Source: Vulcanimicrobiota bacterium (lineage in GTDB: Bacteria; Vulcanimicrobiota; Vulcanimicrobiia; Vulcanimicrobiales; Vulcanimicrobiaceae). Taken from it: DNA of 64,000 nucleotides. Numbering within the stretch: position 1 is the stretch's first letter; every line of letters begins with the position of its first letter. The stretch lies in assembly GCA_003151115.1 (NCBI GenBank), contig PLWS01000006.1, forward strand, positions 1 to 64,000, written 5' to 3'. The translations under genes were made by a program, and so were the position numbers. Positions 3,047 to 57,523 of the stretch are shown here, piece after piece. The notes under the pieces are model-generated. The model was given only the letters and a program-made list of their open reading frames with translations, had not been told where the DNA came from and searched no databases.

Positions 3047-3133
3047 ATGGCACGGACCACCGGACCGACCACAGATAACTGGAGCGATCCGCTGGCATTT
3101 GTTCTCGTCACTCGAGATCTGGACTACAGATGA
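3047..3133 (+). CDS. 28-codon micro-ORF bridging recombinase and regulator
   Basis: A 28-residue frame (MARTTGPTTDNWSDPLAFV, then LVTRDLDYR) starts five bases after the recombinase stop. Its TGA overlaps the ATG of the next gene (ATGA). There is no homology to judge by. The exact joining of both neighbours suggests either a real small protein or a translational-coupling leader for the downstream gene. Confidence 0.35.
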   Translation: MARTTGPTTDNWSDPLAFVLVTRDLDYR

Positions 3134-3882
3134 CCCATCGAATCGCTTTTAGTGCTTTCGAAAGCGTGGCTGACGCATGGTGTCTTACCGGCCACGAGCG
3201 AGCTACATTACTGGATATTGACTTAAAGACGTACGATAAATGGTATAGGGCAAACGAGTCAGTCCGGATTTCGTCCGATCAGGCACGCCGAGTAGTGCGT
3301 CTCATAAGCATCTATGACTCTACACACAAGGTTTTCGGAGATGCCGAGTATGCAAATGACTGGGTTCATAGAACCAACGCTGCTCTGGACGGCCGGTCGC
3401 CGCTGGAGGTGATGTTAGAGAGCCTCGATGGTATCAGAGCCGTCGACGGACACCTCGAACGTGTCATCGCAGACTACGCTCGCGACAACCCGTCGCGCGA
3501 TGCGTGGCTGCGCAGGCTACCTAACTCCCCGCGTATCAATCATGCCGTCGCGTTAAAGGCATTCAATCGCGTTGCCGACGCTTGGCATCTGTCGACCAAC
3601 GAGCGTTGTCAAATTCTCGGCGCTGAGCCCGGCATCTACGAAGCGTGGACGGCAGGAACGGAAAAGCCGAAGCTTTCCGAGCCGCAGATCATCACAATCT
3701 CGAAAATAATCAACATCTATGACGGGCTGCACAGGCTTTTCGGCGATGAATCATTTGCCGACCTGTGGGTTAGAGAGGCTAGTGCGGCGCTTCAGAACGA
3801 GCAACCGTTGGACCTTATGAGCCGAGATGCTGCGGGTTTAGATCGCGTCTTTGCATTGGTCATGGACGTATTGGCGATGTGA
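3130..3882 (+). CDS. Tandem-duplicated Xre/MbcA/ParS-type antitoxin-like protein
   Basis: 250 residues made of two copies of one module. Copy 1 (about 8-100) runs from AFESVADAWCLTGHERATLL to NAALDGRSPLEVML. Copy 2 (about 137-232) runs from AFNRVADAWHLSTNERCQIL to SAALQNEQPLDLM. Each copy resembles the Xre/MbcA/ParS (DUF2384) antitoxin: an HTH (VADAWxLxxxERxxxL) followed by a toxin-binding segment (IYDxxHxxFGD...ADxWVxxxxAAL). These antitoxins normally pair with RES-domain toxins, and no RES gene is visible nearby. The position as last gene of a recombinase operon suggests a transcription or recombination regulator instead. Confidence 0.72.
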   Translation: MTHRIAFSAFESVADAWCLTGHERATLLDIDLKTYDKWYRANESVRISSDQARRVVRLISIYDSTHKVFGDAEYANDWVHRTNAALDGRSPLEVMLESLDGIRAVDGHLERVIADYARDNPSRDAWLRRLPNSPRINHAVALKAFNRVADAWHLSTNERCQILGAEPGIYEAWTAGTEKPKLSEPQIITISKIINIYDGLHRLFGDESFADLWVREASAALQNEQPLDLMSRDAAGLDRVFALVMDVLAM

Positions 3883-8301: not shown

Positions 8302-10128
8302 ATGCCTAAAAAAGATAAGGCGGCGCCAAACAGCCCCAAGCGACCCCGAAACCGTCTGGCAGAGGCTCGCGTCGCGGTAAGGGACGTTCCATCCACACCC
8401 GAGGGGTTGGAGGGAGGGCGGAAACCACCCGATCTTCCTGGGGCGACGTTCTACCGTTTGCGAGCCGACCTCGCCGGCAACGCGGTCGCGATCCCGGCGG
8501 TTTTCTTAACCAATCCTGAGCTTCTGATGGGTGAAGCCGAAATTCAAGGCGGGAGAGCATTTCTCTACGGGCGTGCGCCGATATCAGACCCACCTGATTT
8601 TGTGCCTTTTATAAAGCAGCAATTTGAAGTAGAAATACCCGACTCGCACCGACTGGAGTACGTACTAGTCATACGAGGTGATGGCAAACCAAAATCCTGG
8701 TACGCGCTTGCATTCGGGATCGGGCGCTATTTGCTCAAAGAGGAATATTTGGACGTAGACGGCGCGCGCGAGGTCGCCAGGCGCCAGACGATGACGCAGA
8801 AGCCCGGAGTAGCAGCGCGGCTGAACCAGTTGCGAACAAAACAGCCCTGCCTCGCTAATACAATAACGACGGAAAAGCGTGCCAACCGACCGGCGACGCT
8901 TGATGAGCTTGATTTCGATCCCTACACGAGTGTCTTAGACGCGGCGTCCGGAGCACCGCACGACAGCGTGAAATTCGGCTCGCGGCTGACTGGCGGCACC
9001 GGTATTAAAGTTCGAAAAAACTTAAGCATTGACGATCTGGCGAGCATGGCTACCAATTTGGAAAGCGCTTATTTGGATGCAGTTCAAAATGCGAGCGTCA
9101 TCGGGATAAGAATCGTTCACAATCAAGCGCTGATTTCGCAACTTGATCAGCAATTGCTCGATCTGCTAAAAGATGAGAACGAGACTGATCGGATCGCGTT
9201 CTCGCTTCCGTACTTCGAGGACGCTGAGGACAATCCGAGTCTCACCTTCACGAAAATGGGGCAAGATGTCGGGTCCTACGCCGACGATCTCGACGTTCGG
9301 GGGTATCGGAACGCCCTGAGGGATTCCGGCAAATGGGACGGTCTATCGGTCGAGTTCCTGAAAACCTCTGCTGCCGTAATCGGAGGTGGCAAGCGGCGTT
9401 TTAAAATTTATCAATGCCTCTCGGTAGTCGTAGAGTTAGATGGCAAGACGTACGTCCACGACGAACGCTCATGGTATGTCGTGCCCTCGGAGGCAAAAGA
9501 ATATATCGATGAGACGATCCGCGCAATACCGTTCTGGGAAGGTCTGCCTGATGCTTTGCAACGAGTTGAGGAGAGGGACTATAATGCGAACGTCGGGGTC
9601 GGCGAATACCTGCTCCTTGATCGCAAAAATCTTTCGGTGATCGCCGGTGAGGATCCAATTGAGATATGTGATCTGTTAACTGTGGAAAACAAAAAGTTGT
9701 CCTTCATTCATGTCAAGCGAGATTTCAGTTCAAGCACGCTTTCACATCTCTTTGCGCAAGGCCGAGTGAGCGCGTCCCTACTTCAACAGCGCGCACTGCG
9801 TGATCTGATGTTCGCACACATTTTGAGGGAAGCGCGTAGACGGCAACCTCAGCCCCCTTGGTCCAGAAGGCTAAGAGGTTATCTGGAACATTTTCAATGC
9901 AATCGAATTCGTATCGTCTATGCCATCATGGGAGATTGGGGCAATGCAGGTGCGGCGGAGCGAATACCCTTTTTCAGCAAGGTCAATCTCATCAGAGAGG
10001 TCCGAAATCTTCGCGGCCGGGACTTTGAGGTATGTCTTGGACGCATACAAATGCCTGGACCGGTATACGCCAAGCGCAAGAAGGAACGAAAGCCCAAAGC
10101 CCCCGGCGCCTCGTTGAGCAGCGAATAG
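8302..10128 (+). CDS. DUF6119 / TIGR04141 sporadically distributed protein
   Basis: 608 residues. The C-terminal half carries the marks of the sporadically distributed TIGR04141 (DUF6119) family: YVHDERSWYVVPSEAKEYID, then YLLLDRKN, then IEICDLLT, and FIHVKRDFSSSTLSHLFAQG followed by RVSASLL. The function of the family is not established. Its patchy distribution among defence genes and the IHVKR...SSxLSHLF block have led to suspicion of a nuclease-like or phage-defence role. The basic N-terminus (MPKKDKAAPNSPKRPRNR) may contact nucleic acid. It is expressed from the palindrome-controlled promoter just upstream and followed closely by a membrane partner. Confidence 0.72.
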   Translation: MPKKDKAAPNSPKRPRNRLAEARVAVRDVPSTPEGLEGGRKPPDLPGATFYRLRADLAGNAVAIPAVFLTNPELLMGEAEIQGGRAFLYGRAPISDPPDFVPFIKQQFEVEIPDSHRLEYVLVIRGDGKPKSWYALAFGIGRYLLKEEYLDVDGAREVARRQTMTQKPGVAARLNQLRTKQPCLANTITTEKRANRPATLDELDFDPYTSVLDAASGAPHDSVKFGSRLTGGTGIKVRKNLSIDDLASMATNLESAYLDAVQNASVIGIRIVHNQALISQLDQQLLDLLKDENETDRIAFSLPYFEDAEDNPSLTFTKMGQDVGSYADDLDVRGYRNALRDSGKWDGLSVEFLKTSAAVIGGGKRRFKIYQCLSVVVELDGKTYVHDERSWYVVPSEAKEYIDETIRAIPFWEGLPDALQRVEERDYNANVGVGEYLLLDRKNLSVIAGEDPIEICDLLTVENKKLSFIHVKRDFSSSTLSHLFAQGRVSASLLQQRALRDLMFAHILREARRRQPQPPWSRRLRGYLEHFQCNRIRIVYAIMGDWGNAGAAERIPFFSKVNLIREVRNLRGRDFEVCLGRIQMPGPVYAKRKKERKPKAPGASLSSE

Positions 10129-10133
10129 CTCGC

Positions 10134-11192
10134 GTGGCGGATCCTACGGCGATCGCGACCGAGCATCTAGTTAGAGCTACCTGGTTTTTGGCCGAGGTCA
10201 CTGTTGGGCTAGCGTTTGGTACGTTATTGGCTGTCGTCGTGCCGATAATTTTGCGCAAGCTCGACATCGCTCGCGAGACTCGGTCGTCACGCCGGCAGAT
10301 GATAGCGATCCTCCACCTGCTCGAAGCGCGCGTTAAAATGCTTATTGTTGGTCCGTTGATTCCTGCGGTGCGCTTGATCGCCGCTACGGAGAATCTTATG
10401 AATCGTGCGCTCGAGGCCGACATGTCTCGAGCACTGCCTCAAGACAAAATTGACGAGATTTATTTGGCTATCGTCAAGACATTCCAAACCGTGTACGAGG
10501 CGAAATCGCTGCAGAAGCAATATCATGATCAACGGCGGAACATCAGCGCGCTTGAGAAAGAGAGAGAGGGCCTCAACGGCTCCGACCCGCAGCGCGCTGC
10601 GGGGATTCAAACCGAGATTTCCGAGGCTCGTTCAAGCGCCAATGAGGTCGTCGGGGCTATCGTTTTTAACGCAACAACGTCGCGGGCGCGGCTGGTTGAA
10701 GCGCGGGCGGCCCTGGGAGATAAAAGACTGCAATCCTTGGACAAGCCCACCTCTTCCGTCGCGGAGCTTGCGCAAAAAACGTTGCGCGAGGGTCTGCATA
10801 AGCCGTTTGAGGGCGCACAGGCGGAAGAAGTGCCGGCGCGTGTACCTGCGAAAAACGGTTGGAGTGAATGGGTGCAGCGTTTTGCAGAGCATATTGGCAA
10901 GTGTATTGCGACTGAGACGGTTTATCGTGCGGACCTTATCGGGAGAGTTCCGCTCGCTTGCACGTTGCTGAGTAATGGGTTCGGAGCCTCGCTCCCGGTC
11001 TCAGCCCATGAGACGATAGAAGTTACCGCGATAAAACGGGATACACGAGCTGGCATGCGGGCAGCTTTTGATATGACCGATGATCCATGCGAAGCGGCTG
11101 ACGCTGTAATGAGCAAACTGACAACGTCGCCTCAATTCATTGCGCCAGATCAGGGTGAGGTCAATCGCATTTTGATTGAATCGCTAGGCTAG
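10134..11192 (+). CDS. Membrane-anchored coiled-coil partner protein
   Basis: About 352 residues if the GTG at 10134 is used, five bases after the previous stop. An in-frame ATG at 10032 would overlap the upstream gene by 97 bases. One N-terminal transmembrane helix (ATWFLAEVTVGLAFGTLLAV) is followed by a long charged, partly coiled-coil cytoplasmic region (for example SLQKQYHDQRRNISALEKER) with heptad-like spacing. No domain is recognised. Tight spacing makes it a likely functional partner of the DUF6119 protein, perhaps recruiting it to the membrane. Confidence 0.6.
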   Translation: MADPTAIATEHLVRATWFLAEVTVGLAFGTLLAVVVPIILRKLDIARETRSSRRQMIAILHLLEARVKMLIVGPLIPAVRLIAATENLMNRALEADMSRALPQDKIDEIYLAIVKTFQTVYEAKSLQKQYHDQRRNISALEKEREGLNGSDPQRAAGIQTEISEARSSANEVVGAIVFNATTSRARLVEARAALGDKRLQSLDKPTSSVAELAQKTLREGLHKPFEGAQAEEVPARVPAKNGWSEWVQRFAEHIGKCIATETVYRADLIGRVPLACTLLSNGFGASLPVSAHETIEVTAIKRDTRAGMRAAFDMTDDPCEAADAVMSKLTTSPQFIAPDQGEVNRILIESLG

Positions 11193-11702: not shown

Positions 11703-12510
11703 GATGTACATTTAGTATATCACAACGGTTAGCGCTGTTGCACCATCTGCTGGATGCATTGCTGGACGGCTGGACGTGATCGTGATTCACAACTCGTCCG
11801 CTCATCGCGATAGCACCGACAGTTACAAATAGAGCGATTCCCAAGTACATGAAGGCAAATGAAGCACTAAGCCACCGTGCCTTAATAATCCCAGAAGTGC
11901 CTTCGTCGATGGCGTAGTCATTCCAAGCCTCGGCTAACTCCATTTTTATTTTTGCGTTGTTGTTTAGTTCATTGGCGATCGAGGGAAGGTTATAGGTTAT
12001 TGGAGATGGCAGATCGTGCGTCTCAACAGCGTTGACTGTCCCAGCTAAGACAACTGCCAATGCCAAACAGGCCATTGCCGCGATTCCGATCGGAACATTC
12101 GGTATATTGTGCGCGCTTGCGAAGGTGATTGCAAAGCCGATGAGGGCTGTGCTTAAGACGATAACGCCCGTGGATTTTGTCTCCAAATTGCGATTGCCCT
12201 CAACTGCCCGATCGACAACAAGCATTACCTGCTGCAAGATCGTTTCCGCCGTTTCGGCCGTTTGCAGAGCTGGCGTACGTTTAAGACGTTCCTCAGCCAA
12301 CTGGCGGGCGGCGAGGCTTATGCGCGCTGGCTTCCACGGTCGAAACAGATGCAATCCGAGCAGTCGCCGTGCACCCCCGTTTATTCTTTGCCAGCTAGCG
12401 GATATTACACGCTCGAGTGTGCTCAACAGCCATTGCACGTCGTTAATCACGCGTCCGATACGCGTTTTGGCGAAGTGTCCAATCCGGTGAAAGGCTTTCT
12501 GGGCGTTCAT
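11674..12510 (-). CDS. Membrane protein with paired C-terminal TM helices
   Basis: About 278 residues from ATG at 12508-12510. A longer reading to a TTG at 12684 would overlap the upstream gene by 80 bases. After a basic N-terminal region comes a helical segment (ETILQQVMLVVDRAVEGNRN) and then two TM helices close together (GVIVLSTALIGFAITFASA and IAAMACLALAVVLAG). A third TM lies near the C-terminus (FAFMYLGIALFVTVGAIAM). The layout recalls SLATT or Pycsar-TM pore-type effectors, but sequence identity is too low to assert it. It sits in an operon with 12605 and 13615. Confidence 0.5.
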   Translation of the reverse strand: MNAQKAFHRIGHFAKTRIGRVINDVQWLLSTLERVISASWQRINGGARRLLGLHLFRPWKPARISLAARQLAEERLKRTPALQTAETAETILQQVMLVVDRAVEGNRNLETKSTGVIVLSTALIGFAITFASAHNIPNVPIGIAAMACLALAVVLAGTVNAVETHDLPSPITYNLPSIANELNNNAKIKMELAEAWNDYAIDEGTSGIIKARWLSASFAFMYLGIALFVTVGAIAMSGRVVNHDHVQPSSNASSRWCNSANRCDILNVHHERPSILRK

Positions 12511-12604
12511 GGTTATGGCTCTGTATGCTCCGATGCATAGCGTAACGAGGTTTCGCGCGATTGACGTGACGGTGATGGCGAGAATTGCGTGAGTATAGGC
12601 CCGG

Positions 12605-13555
12605 TCAGGAAACTTCGGTTTGAAACGCGACGAGCGTGAAGATACATTTACCTGCAGTATAAATGCCTGAAAGTAATAAGGCAAATACGAACGGTGCCGC
12701 CGTCGTTGTGCTCGGGAATGCGGCGAAGCAACTAGTCATAACGCCAACTCCTATGACGCTTCCGCGTAGGAATTGAACGGATAAATTACTGGCAAGATAC
12801 TTTTGGTGGGCGGATATTTGCCGTAACTGGGTGTTCGCGCTCTTTACGTGAGTAAGTATCAGGTTGGCGTGATGTTGTCGCGCACTTACGATGTCGCCCT
12901 GGGATTGTGTCCGGCTCAGATAAAGCTGTGCCCGACGGTATCGCTGTGAAAGGTGTGTTTCAAGGAACGCCAGGCGCTCATGTGTTCGCTCATCGTATAG
13001 AGACACGAAAGAATAGGAACTCGCGTTTATAGCCGCGGCAACCAGGCAGCTGAGCGAAATCATCCAACGTTGGGACCACGGGACAAGCGAAAGGATAGAA
13101 AAGTACAGCGCAGTCTGGAAAGAGCCCGTGATGACCGTGGCGCACATCAGAATCCAGTAGTTTTTGACGCGAGCATCTACCAGTTCTACGAGTCTCATAA
13201 ATCGTGGAGCCGTACCCGTGGAAGACATAGGTACGGCGTCGCGAAAGAAACTTAGAATACCGACAGAGATAACCCAGAGAGTGGCTGCGACCGTAGCAAC
13301 CGTAACGAAAAATTCTTTGTTGCCTTCCTCGTAGTACAAGGATGCCATGTTGCCAAAATAGGAAGAATAAAGATGCGGGTATGCGATATCGATTAAGCGT
13401 GCAAGTAAGAAAAGTGCAAGCAATGCCCAGAGATAGAATAGGGTTTTAACGCGCCGGATTAACGTCCGCGTTGTAATCCGCGGCGGTTCGTAAAAAAACC
13501 GATCAATGAAGTCGCCGAACGATCCGAGCCGCTGTCGTGCGAACTGTATTGCCAT
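12605..13555 (-). CDS. Polytopic membrane protein, unknown
   Basis: 316 residues with an ATG start. About six TM helices are visible: LFYLWALLALFLLARLIDIA, FFVTVATVAATLWVISVGIL, WILMCATVITGSFQTALYFS, WMISLSCLVAAAINASSYSF, GSVIGVGVMTSCFAAF and FVFALLLSGIYTAGKCIF. Between helices 4 and 5 a polar helical stretch of about 90 residues (ERLAFLETHLSQRYRRAQLY) may be a cytoplasmic coiled coil. No family is recognised. It is co-directional with the genes on both sides. Confidence 0.55.
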   Translation of the reverse strand: MAIQFARQRLGSFGDFIDRFFYEPPRITTRTLIRRVKTLFYLWALLALFLLARLIDIAYPHLYSSYFGNMASLYYEEGNKEFFVTVATVAATLWVISVGILSFFRDAVPMSSTGTAPRFMRLVELVDARVKNYWILMCATVITGSFQTALYFSILSLVPWSQRWMISLSCLVAAAINASSYSFVSLYDERTHERLAFLETHLSQRYRRAQLYLSRTQSQGDIVSARQHHANLILTHVKSANTQLRQISAHQKYLASNLSVQFLRGSVIGVGVMTSCFAAFPSTTTAAPFVFALLLSGIYTAGKCIFTLVAFQTEVS

Positions 13556-14647: not shown

Positions 14648-14926
14648 TCACAAATTGTTGCATGTCAATTCCTTGTTTATATTGGAATACAGCACATGAT
14701 AAGGAACCGACGAAAACAATCGGTGCAATCGCGATTCACACCAAACGCCTCGACTCCAAAGCATCACCACTGTCCCTTGGAGCCCAGCTGACGCCGAACA
14801 AAGCTGTAGTGCGCTCAATATCTGATTTTTTTGGGCAGCAGACATGAACTCCACTTGGTCTGCGACGAAGACAATTATGAGATCTTCGCCCTGCTCGCGA
14901 ATGTGTGCGACCTTAAAGCGTTGCAT
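14648..14926 (-). CDS. Small protein, last gene of the TIGR04255-type cassette
   Basis: 92 residues (MQRFKVAHIREQGEDLIIVF, then VADQVEFMSAAQKNQILSAL, then GTVVMLWSRG). A compact alpha/beta fold is likely: two beta strands, a helix, and another strand. It starts six bases after the stop of the upstream gene. No family is recognised, but the sequence is clearly protein-like and the spacing argues for co-transcription. Confidence 0.6.
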   Translation of the reverse strand: MQRFKVAHIREQGEDLIIVFVADQVEFMSAAQKNQILSALQLCSASAGLQGTVVMLWSRGVWCESRLHRLFSSVPYHVLYSNINKELTCNNL

Positions 14927-14932
14927 TCGGTC

Positions 14933-15676
14933 TCACTGATTCTCGGGGCCGCCCCTACTGAGCTCTGCTGAATTAAGGCCGTGATAGCCTTCGACGATTG
15001 CATAGGGAGTTCGCCGTGAATCTTCGGCCTGACGTTCCAAGACCGTGATACCGTGATCGCGGACCAGAGATTGAGCGACGCCATCGATCCAGTCCAGGCA
15101 TCGAATGCGGTCGTCCGCATCTCGGAGGATTGCCCAAAGCCGCACTTCCGTCTCCGATTCGTACAGCACGAGGATATCACGGACTCTGCCGATGAGAGCG
15201 GGTGGCATCGCGTCGTAGAGGCCCGGGTAAAGTATGTCGCTGGCCATGCGGTCAAATGGCTCCGGAACGGCCGGACGGTCGTACCTTAATCCCAACCACG
15301 CTTTAATTTCCCGCCGGCGCAGATCATCAACCGAATTATCTCGAAATTTCTTGAGCGAATTCAGTGCTCGTGCAGTCATCGTGAGCTTCTGGCTGTCAGC
15401 TTTTAATACAAAGTCGGGGGTAATGCATGCCGCGCGGCTACGAATCCCATCCACACGAATGCCGGCCGAGGGAAAAACTGGTCGCAGTTCAATCTGCCGG
15501 CTCTGATTGGTACACTGCGTTGAATGCAAATCGCAATCTTGCGTAACGACGGCCCAGAGTCCAAACTCCTGGTCGCACTGCGTCAACGTATCGTCCGCCA
15601 AATCATAGGAGCGAACGGTCAGAGATGTCTTAAGGAGCGACCCTTGTCGCCACCCTTCCTCGAAAAGCGACGGCAT
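14933..15676 (-). CDS. Cassette protein with SQDCDL-like motif
   Basis: 247 residues. Near the N-terminus is GLWAVVTQDCDLHSTQ, a 'VV(T/S)QDCDL' motif seen in uncharacterised proteins of accessory regions; a catalytic or metal-binding cysteine is possible. The C-terminal part is mixed alpha/beta (RDILVLYESETEVRLWAILR). Its ATG directly abuts the preceding gene's stop. Function unknown. Confidence 0.62.
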   Translation of the reverse strand: MPSLFEEGWRQGSLLKTSLTVRSYDLADDTLTQCDQEFGLWAVVTQDCDLHSTQCTNQSRQIELRPVFPSAGIRVDGIRSRAACITPDFVLKADSQKLTMTARALNSLKKFRDNSVDDLRRREIKAWLGLRYDRPAVPEPFDRMASDILYPGLYDAMPPALIGRVRDILVLYESETEVRLWAILRDADDRIRCLDWIDGVAQSLVRDHGITVLERQAEDSRRTPYAIVEGYHGLNSAELSRGGPENQ

Positions 15677-16513
15677 TCAATCGGCGCTATCCTCATCGTT
15701 GTTCTCGTGAATGTCGCGGGAGGGCCGGTCGTACCACCGCAAGGGTATATTTTGAACTTCGGGCATGCTTGCCCGGGGCGATACGGCGTCCATTACGGCG
15801 CCAAAGGCTTCGCGAAATCTTCCAGCAAGCAGATGATCGGTGGCACTTATGCCGTCCCGGTCGCTCGCTGTCGAGAGGACTCTTACGATTGCGACGTCAT
15901 TGCGGCGCGTAACTTTTAGGAGAGCGATAAGAAACTGGTGGAGCGCATCGATCTTGGAGCCAATCTGTGGGGACGCCGTTTTCCCCTTGGCGATCCGCTG
16001 AAGTTCGGTGTGGGACCCGCCGATGATCAGTTCTAGCTTCCGCCAGGACCAAATCCCACTTTGGTAGATTTCTCTTAAGAGTGTATCGTAACCCGTGGTA
16101 AGGGTATGCGGTAGAACATGTTCGGTTGGCGTCTTCACGCTAACAAGGCGGAACTCGTCAGCGAGATCTGGTTGCTCCTCGGAAGTGCTATCTGCTACAT
16201 GCGCGGGCAATCGCTCATAGTCGACAACGTACGGCGAAGTAAAAACCACCAATCCGTAGGCGGCAAATGGTTCTGAGGGCCGCTGCATGTCAATGAGGCC
16301 AACATGACCAAATTTCGTTGCGCCGGGTAATGAAAATATCTGGGTTAGCTCGGCGTTGACTGTCATGAGATGACGGTCGAGGGACCATAAAATTGTCGAA
16401 TCGAGTTCGAAGGTCACGCAGTCGGTTCTACCTTGGCAATGAGGGATGAACCATTTCTTGAAAGATTCCAGTGGAGCTTTTGGCTTTGCGCCGAGAATCT
16501 GTAGCCCGCTCAT
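15677..16513 (-). CDS. Cassette protein with C-terminal Xre-like HTH
   Basis: 278 residues. The first about 150 are of unknown fold. Around residues 148-185, SGIWSWRKLELIIGGSHTEL followed by QRIAKGKT reads as an Xre-type helix-turn-helix (helix, 'GxSxTxLxRIxxGKT' turn and recognition helix). The gene overlaps its upstream neighbour by four bases (ATGA). It could be the transcriptional or target-sensing member of the four-gene cassette. Confidence 0.6.
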   Translation of the reverse strand: MSGLQILGAKPKAPLESFKKWFIPHCQGRTDCVTFELDSTILWSLDRHLMTVNAELTQIFSLPGATKFGHVGLIDMQRPSEPFAAYGLVVFTSPYVVDYERLPAHVADSTSEEQPDLADEFRLVSVKTPTEHVLPHTLTTGYDTLLREIYQSGIWSWRKLELIIGGSHTELQRIAKGKTASPQIGSKIDALHQFLIALLKVTRRNDVAIVRVLSTASDRDGISATDHLLAGRFREAFGAVMDAVSPRASMPEVQNIPLRWYDRPSRDIHENNDEDSAD

Positions 16514-17313
16514 TGGGCCTGGTCTTCCTTTGGCCTCAGCTCGAAGTGTTTGACGCCCTCGTCGCTGAGACTTGATCGTAAGAGTGCAGCGATTTCGTGG
16601 TTAATCCGTTGATAGACCGCTCCGATATCCGAGGCGCTAAACGGGGCCTGACGGAAAGAAGCCATATCGATGTCGGCCAGAAATGATTGCTGCGAAGCTG
16701 CCGGCGAGCTCGTTATATCGGCTCCTACTCCGTTCGGCAGAAAGCCATAGCGAATTGTGGCCGCATTGACAAGCGACTGGGGATCGGATTGATTCATCTG
16801 TGTGACCAGTACCCAGGTTCGCAATGTATCTGGCGTTACCAGGTTACCACCGGCCCAACCCGTAAACTCAGATCGGAACCACAACAGAAATTCCTCGATA
16901 GTGGCTGGTGCCGCATTGATGTAACGAACCCCTAACCGCTCATAGCTGGTGATCTTTCCAACTTCACCGATGGGCCCCAAAACGGACTCGAGAACGGCTT
17001 GAAAGACATCGCGAGACTTGTAGGATTCATTAATCGATAGAGTGACGTTTGCGCCCGTGATCGCGAGCTCGTGCCCCGCGCGGTCTACGAAAAGGTAGCG
17101 TTGCGCCGTCGGTGCTGCCGGCCCGATCGATATCTGGAAGGCGGCAGCGTTTTCAGTCTGTAGCGTAAAGCCCTGTAGCCGGTCTTGCAGATCGGCCAGC
17201 CCCTGGGGGGCAACCAGGTGAGCCGAAAACGGGAACACGAGTTGAACCACGGCGCGAGCCAGGGGAGGCTTCCCCATGGTGTACGAGCCTTGGGTAGCCT
17301 GAAAGACGAACAT
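16510..17313 (-). CDS. TIGR04255 family protein
   Basis: About 267 residues from ATG at 17311-17313, with AAGGATAGGT directly upstream; MGKPPLARAVV at 17277 is an alternative start. The order of conserved blocks matches the sporadically distributed TIGR04255 family: an N-terminal KPPLARAVVQLVFPF segment, a beta-rich middle with FVDRAGHELAITGANVTLSI, then SYERLGVRYIN. No biochemical role is established for the family. It leads a four-gene minus-strand operon (17313 to 14648) that looks like a mobile cassette. Confidence 0.68.
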   Translation of the reverse strand: MFVFQATQGSYTMGKPPLARAVVQLVFPFSAHLVAPQGLADLQDRLQGFTLQTENAAAFQISIGPAAPTAQRYLFVDRAGHELAITGANVTLSINESYKSRDVFQAVLESVLGPIGEVGKITSYERLGVRYINAAPATIEEFLLWFRSEFTGWAGGNLVTPDTLRTWVLVTQMNQSDPQSLVNAATIRYGFLPNGVGADITSSPAASQQSFLADIDMASFRQAPFSASDIGAVYQRINHEIAALLRSSLSDEGVKHFELRPKEDQAQ

Positions 17314-17449
17314 ACCTATCCTTGGTACCAAAAATGTTCCAAGAAAGTTCCAATTTGGTTCCGCATCGAGTATAATGTACCCCCTGCAGGCGCATTTGCC
17401 TGCCGGCTGGCCGGAATGGCCTGGCTCAATGTCAGAAAGGGGCTACCCG

Positions 17450-18856: not shown

Positions 18857-20383
18857 TCAATTTTTTGAACTTAACTCGGCGCTCGAAGAGGCGGACGAGT
18901 TGGACCGTAACCACACGAGGCCCGTTTTTGACGCTCTTGCACCGCCCAACGCTTGCACCAACGCACTGGCAAGCTCGCGGCGTTGTTCGTACGGTGCCAC
19001 GTCACAGAGCTGCTGGAAATTTTGTAAAAGGGCTGAAGCTCGTTCTTGCGTCCGCTTTTCCTCATGGTCCTGTTCGAGGATTTCGGTGACCTGACTTAAC
19101 CGATCACGGCAGCTGCCTTCGTCCTCAGCAATCGCGCGAAGCTGTCGTGCAAGATCCGCTTCGACCGAGTCGTCGGAGAGAGCCAACTGCCATGCACGTT
19201 GTCGGAGCCGGTCGAACGATCCATCCCGTAAGTGTTCTTCTAATTGGCGCTGCTCATGACTCAACGCGTCGGCGTCCGAAGCGCGTTTTGCCGCTGCCCA
19301 GCGCTCGAGCACACTAGGGTCTGCTCGGAGGCTTGCGATGTCTTCTTTGAACCACCGCTCTAGAAGCTCGGCATTGATTCTATAGTTGCAAACAATACAC
19401 GCATAATACCGAACGCGTCGGTAACGGCGATAGACTTTCCTAGTTCCGTCGGCGCAGCGTCTGCTGCCACTGGCTCCCGTTGCATGGCCGTGAAACGAGC
19501 GCCCACAGGTGAGGCATTTGACGGCGCCCGAGAGCGGGTACTCGTAACCGCGCTCCTGGCGCCAACGCGGCTTCGAGCGAATGGCTTCCTGGACTTGATC
19601 AAAGAGGTCCGGGTCCACGATCGTGCCTCGGTAGCGGTGCTGATCCAAAAGCTTTCGAACGCGGGTGCACTCCCAGACGTGGCAGCGTTCCCGAATGATC
19701 GGCATACCGTTGGCATCGTGTTTTGACGTGACAACGCGATGCGGAGGTGCACCGGCTTTCATCCTCAGCGCTATTGTATGCATGCCGATGCCGGAGGCGT
19801 ACCACTCGAAGGCTTGTCGCACCCATGGCGCGCTAACGGGCTCCTCGACGTCCTGCTCTGCGCGCAGCTGGAGACCGTACGGCGATTTGTTTGACATTGG
19901 CTTACCTTGGCGCTGGCGCCGTTCCCAGCTTGCCTTGCACCGGTTGCTTTTGGCCTCGTTTTCGGCGTGACCGCCCATGGCCTGGCCAACGATCGCGGCC
20001 TGATCAGCGAACGAATCCATCGCGACCTCGCCACGATCGCGGATGTACAGCTTAACGCCGCTTTCTCGTAGCGAACGAGCGATAACGAGCGTGTCGGTCA
20101 TATCGCGCGAGAGACGGTCGAAGGATGTCGCGATTAGAAATTCCGGAAGACCGTCCCCTCCGGCTTCGAGCAGACCGAGCATTCTCGCGCACTGCGGACG
20201 CCCAATGACGTTCTTCGCCGATGCGCGCTCCTTGAACAGAACCAGCCGGCAGTGGCGGTCGCGAGCGAACTCCTCAGCCCATCGCATTTGCTCCTCCAGC
20301 GAAAGCTCCTGATCAATCTTTAATGTAGAAACCCTGCAGTAGGCCCACACGATGCCGGCGCTTGGTTGTGGCCGCTTTCTCAC
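18857..20383 (-). CDS. Large serine recombinase (integrase) at the island edge
   Basis: 508 residues, GTG start with GGAGG upstream. The resolvase domain has the nucleophile in AYCRVST (Ser19) and the conserved SFDRLSRD segment. A recombinase domain follows (about 165-270), then a zinc ribbon (CLTCGRSFHG paired with CIVC) and a C-terminal coiled-coil region (LSHEQRQLEEHL and beyond), the usual order for phage or ICE integrases. It catalyses insertion at short att sites through a phosphoserine intermediate. It lies against the truncated comEC, so comEC probably contains the attachment site used by this island. Confidence 0.93.
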   Translation of the reverse strand: MRKRPQPSAGIVWAYCRVSTLKIDQELSLEEQMRWAEEFARDRHCRLVLFKERASAKNVIGRPQCARMLGLLEAGGDGLPEFLIATSFDRLSRDMTDTLVIARSLRESGVKLYIRDRGEVAMDSFADQAAIVGQAMGGHAENEAKSNRCKASWERRQRQGKPMSNKSPYGLQLRAEQDVEEPVSAPWVRQAFEWYASGIGMHTIALRMKAGAPPHRVVTSKHDANGMPIIRERCHVWECTRVRKLLDQHRYRGTIVDPDLFDQVQEAIRSKPRWRQERGYEYPLSGAVKCLTCGRSFHGHATGASGSRRCADGTRKVYRRYRRVRYYACIVCNYRINAELLERWFKEDIASLRADPSVLERWAAAKRASDADALSHEQRQLEEHLRDGSFDRLRQRAWQLALSDDSVEADLARQLRAIAEDEGSCRDRLSQVTEILEQDHEEKRTQERASALLQNFQQLCDVAPYEQRRELASALVQALGGARASKTGLVWLRSNSSASSSAELSSKN

Positions 20384-20469: not shown

Positions 20470-22193
20470 CTACGGCTCGCCGTGCGGATGCGAAAGCAGC
20501 AGTGCATCGATCTCGCGCACGCCTTCGCGGCGCAGGAACGGAACAACGATGCGTTCGCCTACCGCCTCAGCGGAGGATTCGCTCCCGTGTCCTTGCCCCA
20601 AACGGCCGCCCGCGTCAACGAGAAGCGTGTGTCCGCGCGGCGTGCGAATGACGATCGCGTCGGCTTGACCGACGTCGAGCACGGTGATCCGCAGCCGGTG
20701 GTCGGGCGTGCGCGGCGGCCACGCCACCAGAAGAACGCCGAGAACGAAAAACGCCGGCGCGAAATTTTTCGCGCCGCGCTTCCAAAAAAAGACGGCGGCG
20801 GCGAGCAACAGATCATATACTGCGATCGTCCACAGCGGGGGCGGCATGGCGGCGATCGTCGATCCGGGCAGCGTCGCGAGCGTGTGAACTGTGGCGACGA
20901 TCCATGCCAAAAACCATCCGTTCAGATTCGCAACCGGCTGCGCGAGCTGCGGAATCGAAGTCAGCGCGAGTTGCATGGCGCCCAGAATCATGGTCAGGCC
21001 GACGCACGGCACGACCGCGGCGTTGGCCACGATCGCGTAAGGCGCGAAAAGCAAGAAAACGGACGCGGTCAACGGCCACGTACCGATTTGCGTCGCGAGC
21101 GTGAGCGTAAACGTTTCGCGCAAACGGGCGGGAATTTCCGCATAGCGCTCGAGCTCCTTATCGATGGAATCTGCGCAGAGCAAGATCGCGCCGACACACG
21201 AAAACGACAGCGCGAACGACGCGCTGCCGATCGCCAATGGGTCGAAGAGCGCGATAACCAGGAGTGCGCTCCGAAGATATTCCAGGCTCGCGTGGCTCGC
21301 CCGCAGGCGTACGCGGTGAGCGCAAGCGAGGCCATCGCCGCCGCTCGCATCGCGGGCAAATGGAGTCCGCTGAAGATCGCGTAGAACCACACCGCGCCGA
21401 TGGTGAGCGCGGACGCCGCGGCGCGCGGCGCACCCGGGAACCGTAGAAGCAGCAGCATCAGCGCCGCCACCACGCCGAGGTGCAAGCCGGCAGTGACCAA
21501 GACATGGACCGTTCCCGTCTCTTGAAATTCGGTTCGCAGTTCGGGCGGCAGCGCGGACCGCTCGCCCCAGAGTTCGCCGGCGAGAATCGTTGCCGACGGC
21601 TCCGGAAGACGCGCGCGCAGCTGCGCGAGCGCCCACTCGTGCGCCTTCGCGATCAGCACGTCTAGAGTCGGTGTCCGCGCCGGCAGGACGCGAAGAATTT
21701 GCGCGTTGCCGATGCGCGCGATGATCCCGCGCCCGCGTTCGATAGCACGCTGGTCGGGTTCGCCGGGATTGCGCGCGCCGTCAAAAGGTTCGACGCGGCC
21801 GCGCACCAGCACGCGAACGCCGGCGCGCGGCATCGCACCGCGAGTCGTGACGGCGAGCTTCATTCCATCGTCCGTAGCGCAAACAAAAGAGCTGCCGCCG
21901 TTTTGGACGCCGTTTGGTTCGAGAACCGTGCAGGCGATGCGCGCCGTTCTTTCGCGAATGTCCGGCTGTGCGCCCGAAACCTGCAGCGCTGCCAGGCACC
22001 AGCCTGCGCCCAGGGCGAGCCCAGCGCACGCGCGAAGCGGCAGAAGCGACGGACGTGCCAGCGCGATCCAGCCGCAAAGCACGACGCATGCGCACAGCGT
22101 CAATCCGCGCGCCTCGGGGGAAAAAGGCTGCGCGGCGGCCGCACCCAAAGCGGCCGCGGCTCCCAACAGCAAAAGCGGGGAACGTTCCGGCAC
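20470..22193 (-). pseudogene. comEC: comEC, frameshifted and 3'-truncated
   Basis: ComEC forms the inner-membrane DNA-uptake channel. The N-terminal Competence domain runs in one frame to CGRATRAWNIFGA near 21,290. Homology then continues in another frame as ALLVIALFDPLAIGSASFAL. One missing base would restore WNIFGAALLVIALFDP. The metallo-beta-lactamase-like domain begins (ITVLDVGQADAIVIRTPRGH) but breaks off at LLLSHPHGEP, just where the HPHxDHxGG metal motif should continue. Past 20,470 the sequence belongs to the recombinase island. The start is probably GTG at 22191-22193, divergent from the epimerase. Competence is likely lost. Confidence 0.85.
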
Positions 22194-22236
22194 GTATCGC
22201 AACTGCGACGAGACGGCAAGAATTAAAGGAGCTGCA

Positions 22237-23175
22237 ATGCGGATCATGGTCACCGGCGGGGCCGGTTTCATCGGGTCTCACGTGGCCGATGCGTACTTAG
22301 CGGCGGGCCACGAAGTGCTGGTTCTGGACGCGCTATGGGAACATGGCGGCGGAAAGCGGCAAAACGTGGCGCCGCGCGCACTGTTTATGCACATGGACAT
22401 CCGCGACGAGGCGATTACGCGGATTTTCCAAGAATTCAAGCCAGAGATCGTCAGCCATCACGCGGCCCAGGCGAGCGTTGCGATCGGATCGCGCGATCCG
22501 ATCTACGACGCGCAAGTCAACGTGGTCGGGCTGCTCAATATCCTCGAGAACTCGGTGCGTCACGGGGTGCAGAAGGTTATTTACGCATCCAGCGGCGCCA
22601 TATTCGGAACGCCGGAACGCCTGCCGATGAATGAGACCACGCCGCAGCGTCCTGAATCTCCCTACGGCATTACGAAAATGGTCGGCGAGCATTACCTGCG
22701 CTTTTTCCAACACGAGCGCGGGCTCGATTTCACATCGCTGCGCTACGGCAACGTCTACGGCCCGCGCCAAGATCCCAACGGTGAGGCCGGCGTGATCGCC
22801 ATTTTTATCGGCCGGTTTTTAGCTCACGAGAGCGTGCGCATCGATTCCGACGGCGAACAAACGCGCGACTACGTTTACGTGCGCGACGTAGCGGCCGCCA
22901 ATCTCGCGGCGCTGGAGCGCGGCAGCGGCGGCATGTATTGCATCGGAACCAACAAACGCACGAGCGTAAACCAGATCTACAAAGAGCTGTGCAAGGTGTC
23001 GGGATTCGAAGCGCCCGTCGTGCACGCTCCAAAACGGCCGGGCGACGCGCGCGACGCGCAGTTCGATTGCGGACTCGCCAAGAAAGAGCTCGGCTGGTCG
23101 CCCGGAACGCAGCTGAGCGACGGCATTCGCGAAACGTTCGAGTATTTTAAGGACGCGCTGCCGGTAACCCGGTGA
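22237..23175 (+). CDS. NAD-dependent sugar epimerase/dehydratase (extended SDR)
   Basis: 312 residues from ATG 22237, with AAAGGAG nine bases upstream. An NAD-binding Rossmann motif sits at the N-terminus (VTGGAGFIGSHVADAY) and the catalytic Ser/Tyr-Lys set is visible (YASSGAIFG and SPYGITKMVGE, i.e. YxxxK). It probably acts on a nucleotide sugar such as UDP-glucose in cell-envelope polysaccharide synthesis. The exact substrate cannot be read from sequence. The stop overlaps the GTG of the following methyltransferase. Confidence 0.88.
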   Translation: MRIMVTGGAGFIGSHVADAYLAAGHEVLVLDALWEHGGGKRQNVAPRALFMHMDIRDEAITRIFQEFKPEIVSHHAAQASVAIGSRDPIYDAQVNVVGLLNILENSVRHGVQKVIYASSGAIFGTPERLPMNETTPQRPESPYGITKMVGEHYLRFFQHERGLDFTSLRYGNVYGPRQDPNGEAGVIAIFIGRFLAHESVRIDSDGEQTRDYVYVRDVAAANLAALERGSGGMYCIGTNKRTSVNQIYKELCKVSGFEAPVVHAPKRPGDARDAQFDCGLAKKELGWSPGTQLSDGIRETFEYFKDALPVTR

Positions 23176-29610: not shown

Positions 29611-31160
29611 GAAAACTTGCCGCTTTCCTATTGTTCTTCGCATTCTGCGCGCCGTTGGTGCCTGTTTCGGCCGCTCCGCCGCGCGCGCCGGCGCAAGCTG
29701 TGGTTTCACCGCCGCCCGACGTCTCCGACGGCGAAACGCCCGACGCCGTTACGCAGCACACCGTTACGATCGACGGGCAGCCCTACGCATACACCGCCCG
29801 CGCCGGCACGATTACGCTGCGCAACGATAAGGAAGTCCCGACCGCACGCGTTTTCTACACGGCCTACACGCTGGACGGCTCGGATCCGGGTTCGCGCCCG
29901 GTGACCTTCCTTTATAATGGCGGTCCGGGCAGCTCGACGATGTGGCTGCGCATGGGCTCGTTCGGACCGGTTCGGGTGCTCGCGGCCAATGCTGCGCACA
30001 CCGGGCCGCCGCCGTACCGCATCGCGAACAACTCTTACAGCTTGCTCGACAAGAGCGATCTGGTCTTTATCGACATGCCCGACAGCGGCTTTGGCCGCAT
30101 CACCGGCGCCGGTACGCCAAAGACGTTCTTCGGTGTCGATCAAGACGTCGCCGCGTTTGCGCAATTCATCCAGCGCTACCTCACAAAATTCGGACGCTGG
30201 AATTCGCCGAAGTTCTTGTTCGGCGAGAGCTACGGTACGACGCGTTCCGCGGCGCTAGCGAACACACTGCTCAACCAAGGCATCGCGCTCAACGGCGTCG
30301 TGCTGCTTTCCTCGATCCTCAACTTCGGTTTGGATTTCGGCAACGGCGATCCGATCGCCGCCGGCGATTGGGCATACGTGCTCTACTTGCCGACGGAGGC
30401 TGCCGCGGCGTGGTATCACGGCAAGGTCCGCAACCGGCCGGCCGACCTTACTGCATTCTTGCAGCCGGTCGAGCAATTTGCGCTCGGCGAGTATCTGGAC
30501 GCGCTCTACAAAGGCTCGACCTTGAGCGCATCGGAACGCAACGACGTCGTTCACAAGTTGAGCGCCTACCTCGGCGTTTCCGAACAGTACGTGCGCGAAA
30601 GCAATTTGCGTATTCCGTACTATCGCTTCGAGCAGCAGCTGTTGCGTTCGCAGGACGCGATCATCGGCCGCCTGGACGCCCGCTATCAAACGTACGCCTT
30701 AGATCGCGCCGCCGACGAAGGCCCGGCATGGGATCCGACGGATTCGTCGATCGACGCGCCCTACACGACGGCGATCAATCAATACCTGCGCAGCGACCTC
30801 AAGTACGACACGACGCTGCAGTACCGTCCGAATATCTACGGCATCATCTACGCAAACGGCAGTTCCTGGGATTTCACGCACAACCGGCGCGAGCCGCCCA
30901 ACGTCGCCCCCGACTTGGCCGAAGCAATGACGCAAAATCCCAGCCTCAAAGTCTTTTCCGCTAACGGCTACTACGACTTCGCGACGCCGTACTTCGCGAC
31001 GGAGTATACGCTGCAGCATCTGAGCATCGCGCCGCAACTGCAGAAAAACATTACGTTCGGCTTCTATCAGTCCGGACACATGGTCTATCTCAACGAGTCC
31101 GCGCTCGCACAATTCAAGACCGACCTGGCCCGCTGGTACGACAGCGCGCTCGCACGCTGA
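29607..31160 (+). CDS. S10-family serine carboxypeptidase-like protein (copy 1)
   Basis: 517 residues with an N-terminal signal peptide (LAAFLLFFAFCAPLVPVSA). The alpha/beta-hydrolase triad is visible: Ser in FLFGESYGTTR, Asp in NGYYDFATPY and His in QSGHMVYLN. An oxyanion region is at FLYNGGPGSST. S10 enzymes remove C-terminal residues from peptides, here probably in the periplasm or outside the cell. The TTG start overlaps the PadR stop. The following gene is a paralogue, indicating local duplication. Confidence 0.88.
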   Translation: MRKLAAFLLFFAFCAPLVPVSAAPPRAPAQAVVSPPPDVSDGETPDAVTQHTVTIDGQPYAYTARAGTITLRNDKEVPTARVFYTAYTLDGSDPGSRPVTFLYNGGPGSSTMWLRMGSFGPVRVLAANAAHTGPPPYRIANNSYSLLDKSDLVFIDMPDSGFGRITGAGTPKTFFGVDQDVAAFAQFIQRYLTKFGRWNSPKFLFGESYGTTRSAALANTLLNQGIALNGVVLLSSILNFGLDFGNGDPIAAGDWAYVLYLPTEAAAAWYHGKVRNRPADLTAFLQPVEQFALGEYLDALYKGSTLSASERNDVVHKLSAYLGVSEQYVRESNLRIPYYRFEQQLLRSQDAIIGRLDARYQTYALDRAADEGPAWDPTDSSIDAPYTTAINQYLRSDLKYDTTLQYRPNIYGIIYANGSSWDFTHNRREPPNVAPDLAEAMTQNPSLKVFSANGYYDFATPYFATEYTLQHLSIAPQLQKNITFGFYQSGHMVYLNESALAQFKTDLARWYDSALAR

Positions 31161-31167
31161 GGACAGA

Positions 31168-32673
31168 ATGAAAAAAGTACTTGCGATAGTTTCCGCCCTA
31201 GGCGCGCTCTCGATGCTCGCTGCCACGCCGGCTCCCAAGCCTTACGTGCCGGCTCCGCCGCCCGATGCGATAACCCACCACGTTGCCTCGATCGGCGGTC
31301 AAACGATTCCGTACACCGCGCGCGCGGGTACGATCACGCTGCGCAACGACAAGGATCAGACCACGGCGCACATGTTCTACGTGGCCTACACGAAGAACGG
31401 CGCCGATCTCAGCCGCAGACCCGTAACGTTTTTCTACAACGGTGGCCCCGGCAGTTCGACGATCTGGCTGCACATGGGATCGTTTTCCCCGGTACGCGTT
31501 GTAACAGCCAATGCCGTGCCGAACGCATCGGCGCCATACGGCTTGAACAGCAACCGCTACAGTTTGCTCGATAAATCCGATCTCGTCTTCATCGACGCGC
31601 CGAACACCGGCTACAGCCGCGTGATCGGGTACGGCGATCCGAAGGACTTCATGGGCGTCGACCAAGACGGCCGCGCGTTCACGCAGTTCATTCAACGCTA
31701 CATCACGCAGTTCAACCGCTGGAATTCGCCCAAGTTTCTCTTTGGCGAAAGCTACGGCACGACGCGCGACGCCGTGCTCGTGAACATGCTGCAAGATGCG
31801 GGCGTGCAGTTCAACGGCGTGGTCTTCCTCTCGACGATCCTCAATTTCGGATTGACGGGCCTGGGCGGATCGAATCCGATCGCGGGCGGCGACTGGGCGT
31901 ACGTGCTGTATCTGCCGAGCGAAGCCGCGACGGCCTGGTATCACCACATGGTTCCCAACCGGCCCGCGAGTCTCGCAACGTTTCTTGCGGGAGTCCAACA
32001 ATTCGCCGGTACGCAGTACATGCACGGACTCGCGCAGGGCGACCGGCTGAGCGCGGCGGGGCGCGACGACATCGTCAGCAAGCTGCACGCCTATCTCGGG
32101 CTCTCGGAAACCTACATTCGCGATTCGAACATGCGCATCTCGTATCCGAGCTTTCAAAAAGAGCTGCTGCGCAGCCGCAATCAAATCGTCGGCCGCCTGG
32201 ATGCGCGCTTTCAAACCTACGGCTTGGATACCGCGGCTGATTCGCCGGAATGGGATCCGGCCGACGTTTCAGTGACCGGCGCTTTTGTCGGCGCGTTCGA
32301 ACGCTACGTGCACGATCAGCTGCACTACTCGAGCAACTTGATCTATCGTCCGACCGCTTACACGCAGCTGGGAGCGCGTTGGGACATGCATCACAACGGC
32401 AACGACCCGCCGGCGAACGTCGCGCCCGATCTCGCCCAGGCGATGAGCGAGAATCCGCACCTCAAAGTGCTGCTGGCCGGCGGATACTACGACTTCGCAA
32501 CGCCGTATTTCGCGGCCCAATATACGCTCAACCACTTGGGCCTGGCGCCCGCGATTGCGCGCAACATCACCTACAAGTTCTACCAGTCCGGACACATGGT
32601 CTACTTGAACACGCCGTCGCTGGCGCAGTTCAAGGCCGACTTGTCGCGCTGGTACGACTCTGCGATGCGCTAA
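31168..32673 (+). CDS. S10-family serine carboxypeptidase-like protein (copy 2)
   Basis: 501 residues, co-directional seven bases after copy 1 and collinear with it along its length (ITLRNDKDQTTAHMFYVAYT here; RNDKEVPTARVFYTAYT in copy 1). Signal peptide LAIVSALGALSMLAATPA. The triad is conserved: FLFGESYGTTR, GGYYDFATPY and QSGHMVYLN. Probably secreted. Differences in the loops may shift substrate preference. Confidence 0.88.
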   Translation: MKKVLAIVSALGALSMLAATPAPKPYVPAPPPDAITHHVASIGGQTIPYTARAGTITLRNDKDQTTAHMFYVAYTKNGADLSRRPVTFFYNGGPGSSTIWLHMGSFSPVRVVTANAVPNASAPYGLNSNRYSLLDKSDLVFIDAPNTGYSRVIGYGDPKDFMGVDQDGRAFTQFIQRYITQFNRWNSPKFLFGESYGTTRDAVLVNMLQDAGVQFNGVVFLSTILNFGLTGLGGSNPIAGGDWAYVLYLPSEAATAWYHHMVPNRPASLATFLAGVQQFAGTQYMHGLAQGDRLSAAGRDDIVSKLHAYLGLSETYIRDSNMRISYPSFQKELLRSRNQIVGRLDARFQTYGLDTAADSPEWDPADVSVTGAFVGAFERYVHDQLHYSSNLIYRPTAYTQLGARWDMHHNGNDPPANVAPDLAQAMSENPHLKVLLAGGYYDFATPYFAAQYTLNHLGLAPAIARNITYKFYQSGHMVYLNTPSLAQFKADLSRWYDSAMR

Positions 32674-55679: not shown

Positions 55680-55736
55680 CCCTTACCAGGTATGAAAGCC
55701 CGCGCGAAAAACCTGCGGACTCTAATAAGGAAGCAT

Positions 55737-55774
55737 GGGAGAGTACGGGTCTGGTGGCCCGCACGGTCTTCAAA
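55737..55774 (+). repeat. 38-bp copy of the 5' half of tRNA-Sec (putative att site)
   Basis: Identical to bases 1-38 of the intact tRNA-Sec gene (57430-57467). Identity begins exactly at the first tRNA base and ends in the anticodon loop (CTTCAAA). Sequence before and after differs. This is the pattern left when an element integrates inside a tRNA gene and supplies a replacement for the displaced half. Confidence 0.9.
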
Positions 55775-57389: not shown

Positions 57390-57429
57390 CAACCAGAACA
57401 GCAAAGATCGAAATCCGTTCGTCGATCAC

Positions 57430-57523
57430 GGGAGAGTACGGGTCTGGTGGCCCGCACGGTCTTCAAAACCGCTGAGGCCGGCGCAAGCCGGCTGGTAGGT
57501 TCGATTCCTACACTTTCCCGCCA
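57430..57523 (+). tRNA. selC: tRNA-Sec (anticodon TCA)
   Basis: 94 bases including an encoded CCA. Acceptor GGGAGAGT pairs with ACTTTCCC (8 bp, against 7 in ordinary tRNAs). The D stem has 6 bp with a 4-base loop (CGGGTC-TGGT-GGCCCG). The anticodon loop is CTTCAAA, the long variable arm GCCGGC-GCAA-GCCGGC, and the T arm GTAGG-TTCGATT-CCTAC. These are the hallmarks of bacterial tRNA-Sec (8/5 type). It works with selA and selB 12-15 kb away. Its first 38 bases are duplicated at 55737. Confidence 0.97.

Follow-up and report, generated by a model that had tools for sequence, protein, structure and literature searches.

A conserved TIGR04255 cassette of three co-evolving genes with predicted operator repeats and a predicted MazF-like protein fold

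Three genes, not four, make up a cassette that encodes a TIGR04255 family protein, an HTH protein of Xre type and a protein bearing a conserved QxCD motif; the cassette forms an operon, is preceded by operator repeats, occurs on mobile elements and co-evolves as one unit. The cassette lies in the window, which is the whole 64,000-nucleotide stretch of Vulcanimicrobiota DNA that was analysed. With moderate confidence, we regard it as a three-component toxin-antitoxin-like module with an effector of MazF fold, mobile and probably acting in abortive infection or stress.

Gene content, conservation and mobility

The cassette and the gene downstream of it are arranged as follows.

16510..17313, minus strand: gene 1, TIGR04255 family protein, 267 aa (NCBIfam TIGR04255, 61.6 bits)
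15677..16513, minus strand: gene 2, Xre-type HTH protein, 278 aa, with a variable N-terminal half (HTH_31 via homologues)
14933..15676, minus strand: gene 3, QxCD protein, 247 aa (AlphaFold2 model, conserved motifs)
14648..14926, minus strand: gene 4, 92-aa protein (open reading frame)

An earlier note on this DNA, made from the sequence alone, had described four minus-strand genes with overlaps or gaps of fewer than ten bases, and the open reading frames agreed with this description, with a 4-nt overlap (ATGA) between genes 1 and 2, 0 nt between genes 2 and 3 (TGA directly followed by ATG) and a 6-nt gap between genes 3 and 4. The start of gene 1 was placed at the ATG at 17313, and an alternative TTG start upstream at 17331 is possible. 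Gene 1 had been called TIGR04255-type, and this was confirmed by its match to the NCBIfam model (sporadTIGR04255) over residues 15-257, well above the curated cut-off of 30 bits; its cassette homologues match the same model in 17 of 17 cases. Genes 2 to 4, each taken alone, gave no Pfam, NCBIfam or PADLOC match above cut-off. Identity with a known anti-phage defence system was rejected, since none of the four proteins matched a PADLOC model.

In a scan of public bacterial and archaeal genomes with the QxCD protein alone as the query, and thus without bias towards TIGR04255, 21 loci were found, mostly in Actinomycetota. The three genes occur together in 19 of these loci, 18 of them intact and one (L064) with all three genes present but frameshifted; the other two (L071 and L072) are remnants without an intact trio. 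At two loci, L065 and L066, the QxCD gene points away from its two partners yet still adjoins them, showing a linkage that goes beyond simple co-transcription. Among the 148 genomes searched in the window's own phylum, TIGR04255 occurred 25 times in 22 genomes, and the trio was found at 8-9 of these 25 loci: in eight, the genes that follow TIGR04255 on the same strand encode first an HTH-type protein and then one bearing a [QE]-x-C-D-[IL] motif; in the ninth (L039), they are an HTH protein gene and a partial third gene. L059 is on the same contig as L040 and was not treated as an independent locus.

Furthermore, all five of the TIGR04255 loci inspected on plasmids carried the trio; they come from Sphingomonas, Chroococcidiopsis, Kocuria, Rhizobium and Paenarthrobacter and cover Alphaproteobacteria, Cyanobacteria and Actinomycetota; PLSDB typing classified three of the five plasmids as conjugative and one as mobilizable. 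A Rhizobium IE4771 record listed as TIGR04255 (H6) was left out of this plasmid count. Some cassettes have ordinary chromosomal flanks, with no recombinases within the fetched stretches, and no relatives were found in viral contigs, phage records or PHROGs. The earlier note would have been contradicted by genes occurring independently of each other; genes 1 to 3 were instead found linked in at least four phyla, as well as on conjugative plasmids, and gene 4 was not conserved with them.

A 92-residue protein is encoded as the earlier note had stated, and its gene lies on the same strand immediately beyond the short gap after gene 3, an arrangement that would suit a four-gene system with this protein as a required subunit. 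However, gene 4 had one good match in the 148 phylum genomes (51% over 47 aa), located in a same-genus genome, 56% complete, that had no TIGR04255 or QxCD match, and no other cassette locus showed a 92-aa gene, the gene calls in the fetched loci being those of a simple heuristic by which small genes may be missed or misplaced. Gene 4 is probably a passenger outside the conserved cassette; the membership previously given to it is not upheld, and a four-gene system is very improbable.

Pairwise protein distances over 20 loci were strongly correlated between the TIGR04255 and HTH proteins (r 0.906), the TIGR04255 and QxCD proteins (r 0.900) and the HTH and QxCD proteins (r 0.886), and correlations as high were obtained in 0 of 5000 permutations, with species relatedness uncorrected. 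When 35 TIGR04255 proteins were placed in a maximum-likelihood tree, the 21 cassette members fell on one side of a branch with 100/99 support, and one long-branch row (L051) also grouped on the cassette side. Cassette and non-cassette labels required 2 changes on this tree, compared with 11.1 for shuffled labels. The TIGR04255 protein of the window and its nearest relative were nested inside an Actinomycetota cluster, a position that fits horizontal transfer.

In the window, the cassette is carried by an island, at whose edge the following features were identified.

18857..20383, minus strand: large serine recombinase at the island edge, belonging to the carrier and not to the cassette (Pfam Resolvase 6e-19, Recombinase 1.9e-5)
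20476..22409, minus strand: N-terminal portion of comEC, which the island interrupts between HPHG and DH (tblastn of intact G105 ComEC)

When the intact ComEC of a same-genus genome (G105) was used in tblastn, residues 4-647 were located in the window and residues 647-838 on contig C5 (L083, about 16733-17316), which places the break in comEC at this motif; the far end of the island falls on a different contig. In a second genome (G103, L084), a C-terminal fragment of comEC adjoins a related recombinase (70% DNA identity), and comEC of a third genome (G104, L110) is interrupted too, at a different point. The compact and transferable cassette on an island that had been described from the sequence was thus borne out by the linkage of the trio, the plasmids and the mobile island.

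Several duplications were also observed. In L083 (contig C5, 268000-287900), two copies of the C-terminal end of comEC lie within about 5 kb, and a 1-kb stretch is duplicated at 80.6% (9572-10564 and 12030-13032). In the window, a 41-bp direct repeat (97.6%) is found at 55734-55774 and 57427-57467, with about 1.7 kb between the copies, and covers the 5' end of a tRNA-Sec gene at 57430; these repeats may mark the two ends of a small element that inserted at selC. A duplicated gene is suggested by two stretches in tandem, each about 1.35 kb long, at 29790-31142 and 31312-32658, with 67% DNA identity.

Predicted structures of the QxCD and TIGR04255 proteins

Structure prediction of the QDCDL protein and its cysteine had been proposed in the earlier note. 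The AlphaFold2 model of gene 3, built with 17 homologues, reached a pLDDT of 87.8 and consists of an N-terminal domain (about residues 1-136) and a C-terminal alpha-beta domain (about residues 137-236), the latter matching several kinds of small alpha-beta domain. The N-terminal domain aligned with MazF-mt1 and MazF-mt3 in VIA-align (Z 8.8, 98-103 residues, 3.1-3.2 A), and MazF, Kid or CcdB chains filled most of the first 50 places in the VIA-align list for the gene 3 model. Z at rank 50 was 6.4, compared with the 4-5 usual for models that lack a clear match. Foldseek matches were weak, with a best E of 0.026 for any chain and 0.033 for MazF-mt9. From the model, the N-terminal domain is predicted to share the SH3-barrel fold of MazF, Kid and CcdB.

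A link at the sequence level between the QxCD protein and MazF was rejected, since PF02452 (MazF/PemK) matched neither gene 3 nor any protein of the whole genome and profile-profile comparison by hhalign of gene 3 with 14 MazF sequences gave a probability of 0.2; therefore, only the claim of a common fold stands. A PDB profile search with the QxCD protein found nothing. Because MazF and CcdB have one common fold and different targets (PMC7180214), the target of the QxCD protein cannot be read from its fold.

The QDCDL motif that had been noticed in gene 3 is present as VVTQDCDL and is conserved across the family, as are a QG and an RP motif. G12, C48 and R134 are invariant in 20 of the 20 aligned proteins, and Q11, Q46, D49 and P135 are kept in 19 of 20. 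Together with the missing sequence link to MazF, the conservation of C48, R134, D49 and Q46 would agree with a different reading, in which the MazF likeness is superficial and the QxCD protein is an enzyme using C48 with D49 and R134. No invariant histidine, as needed by a classical cysteine protease or hydrolase, was found in the 17-protein QxCD alignment, which argues against a classical cysteine protease, and the domination of the fold list by one superfamily down to rank 50 also speaks against such an enzyme, which we consider improbable.

The AlphaFold2 model of gene 1 (pLDDT 80.9) has a duplicated alpha-beta structure, for which the best VIA Z was 8.0. It matched TBP, SAM decarboxylase and phosphagen kinases weakly, with Foldseek values of 1.5e-5 to 4e-4 and large rmsd, and no fold was assigned to TIGR04255, since all of these matches were weak. 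No SecB-like structural match was seen, the single match in a PDB profile search (E 1.1) was meaningless, and no mention of TIGR04255 was found in the open-access literature searched.

Operator repeats and the HTH protein

The assignment of gene 2 as an Xre-like HTH protein, also made in the earlier note, is supported through its family, because its own sequence stays below the Pfam cut-off: 11 of the 14 members of the aligned family match HTH_31, with a best value of 5.9e-8. The antitoxin Xre-like HTH model PF20432 reached at best 17.6 bits in gene 2 homologues, below its gathering cut-off of 25.8, and a PDB profile search with gene 2 found generic HTH chains only. By eye, the C-terminal part of gene 2 resembles the Xre-RES antitoxin family. 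Elsewhere in the window, at 3130-3882, a 250-aa plus-strand protein with an HTH-like start and a GRSPLEVML stretch is Xre/MbcA/ParS antitoxin-like by eye.

Direct repeats were identified upstream of gene 1, next to a possible promoter element.

17324..17364, minus strand: predicted operator, four copies with an 11-bp period (repeat spacing enriched upstream of cassette operons)
17369..17374, minus strand: possible -10 element TATACT, directly upstream of the operator (read from the sequence)

The minus strand reads TATACT-N4-GCGGAAC-N4-TTGGAAC-N4-TTGGAAC-N4-TTGGTAC, with the first bases of the four copies at 17364, 17353, 17342 and 17331. A sigma-70 consensus scan did not pick up TATACT at this position; TATAAT/TATGCT-like hexamers precede the repeats at several other loci. 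When repeats were defined as 8-mers identical at 7 or more positions, a spacing of 11 was found at 12 of 25 cassette loci, compared with 0.5 in shuffled sequence (maximum 4), and none of the other spacings from 8 to 21 was found at more than 3 of the 25 loci. Of the 389 other genes in the fetched loci, 5.1% had such a repeat (Fisher 1.4e-8 vs cassette), as did 1 of the 12 TIGR04255 genes that lie outside the cassette clade. The repeat sequence differs by subgroup (TGGAAC, TGTCCAAC, TGTTCAC, TTCACAC and TGTGAAG), and the spacing of 11-12 bp is kept.

A spacing of about one helical turn would suit tandem copies of a protein that bind along the same side of the helix. The HTH protein is presumably the binder, and the operon is predicted to be autoregulated via the conserved 11-bp direct repeats.

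The conserved operator, which points to regulation, the presence of cassettes on conjugative plasmids and on a recombinase-bearing island, and the weak match of TIGR04255 to the DNA-binding TBP fold might also be explained by an accessory operon of mobile elements with a regulatory and non-toxic role, in which the HTH and TIGR04255 proteins would regulate the island or plasmid that carries them and the MazF-like SH3-barrel would be a nucleic-acid or protein-binding part with no toxic activity. However, cassettes are also found in the ordinary chromosomal flanks described above, and the repeats were seen at the promoter of the cassette alone, with the low rates given above at other TIGR04255 loci and other genes. 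A purely regulatory operon is possible but doubtful.

Proposed function and comparison with known systems

For the toxin-antitoxin-like module that we favour, we infer toxicity, neutralisation, a trigger and a role in defence as follows. The QxCD protein, with its MazF/CcdB-like domain, would be the effector; the Xre-type HTH protein would repress the operon via the 11-bp direct repeats and would probably keep the effector inactive as an antitoxin; and TIGR04255, the third component, would most likely sense a trigger or stabilise the complex. Engagement of TIGR04255 would free the effector and growth would stop; the module is thus likely to arrest the cell during stress or phage attack. In most type II systems, the antitoxin gene precedes the toxin gene, and the order of the cassette, HTH followed by QxCD, agrees with this.

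Strong PADLOC matches were found in the flanks of five cassettes: DrmA and DrmB at L034, HsdS and HsdR at L044, a CD-NTase accompanied by a SAVED-type effector and TRIP13 at L045, a type IIG or DrmMI protein together with an HKD-Snf2 helicase at L061, and at L063 an enzyme resembling those of type III restriction. These belong to DISARM, to CBASS and to restriction systems of types I, IIG and III. Defence genes thus lie beside 5 of 25 cassette loci and beside none of the 16 random regions, a difference that is not significant by locus (one-sided Fisher 0.07), the controls being few, drawn from four phylum genomes and unmatched for Actinomycetota; the six PADLOC matches in the random regions were weak and generic. 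The association is suggestive. The defence or toxin module supposed in the earlier note is plausible, with indirect support from the predicted MazF-like fold, the HTH protein and the operator, and its tie to defence genes remains at the level of a suggestion.

Outside the cassette clade (L030, L032, L033, L035, L037, L042, L043, L046 and L048-L050), TIGR04255 likewise heads a short same-strand operon; unlike in the cassette, its partner is a protein of about 150 aa, and an unrelated third gene follows, which varies and encodes a DUF7689 protein (1.1e-22), a metallo-beta-lactamase-like protein (1.9e-5) or, with a match below cut-off (0.0046), a HicA-like protein. Tentatively, there may be a large and so far undescribed class of three-gene defence modules that have TIGR04255 in common as a sensor or assembly component and exchange adaptor and effector from clade to clade, the effector being the MazF-fold QxCD protein here and DUF7689, metallo-beta-lactamase-like or HicA-like proteins elsewhere.

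The cassette resembles the Xre-RES systems (MbcTA, ParST) in that an Xre-type HTH protein, with a C-terminal part alike by eye, is followed by an effector; it differs from them in lacking a RES-domain toxin and in the low PF20432 score. In CmdTAC, a toxin-antitoxin-chaperone system, CmdC senses a phage capsid protein (PMC11618068). The cassette likewise has three components, the third of which could stabilise the antitoxin and sense infection. CmdT, however, is an ADP-ribosyltransferase and CmdC a chaperone, and for TIGR04255, with no SecB-like match, a sensor role is suggested by analogy.

The closest likeness in the predicted fold of the first domain of the effector is to the type II systems MazEF, PemIK and CcdAB, with which the cassette also has in common a short operon, a DNA-binding protein encoded ahead of the effector, predicted operator repeats in the promoter, and location on plasmids and islands. 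Unlike in these systems, the QxCD protein has no detectable sequence similarity to MazF, carries a second, C-terminal domain and has the conserved QxCD motif, and the cassette has an Xre-type HTH partner plus a third gene, TIGR04255. The part of Makarova and colleagues (PMC2701414) drawn on here gives AbrB, RHH and PHD antitoxins as MazF partners and does not show an Xre-MazF pairing.

If the cassette is a three-component toxin-antitoxin or defence module, it would add a MazF-like effector with an Xre-type partner and would offer a starting point for studying the TIGR04255 proteins of many bacteria. TIGR04255 is a named family without a described role, and the link of one of its branches to a fixed pair of partners, with a predicted effector and a conserved operator, turns it into a testable system. 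New here are the 11-bp direct-repeat operator, the confident model of the QxCD protein, in which the N-terminal domain has a fold like that of MazF, CcdB and Kid, and the island inserted in comEC.
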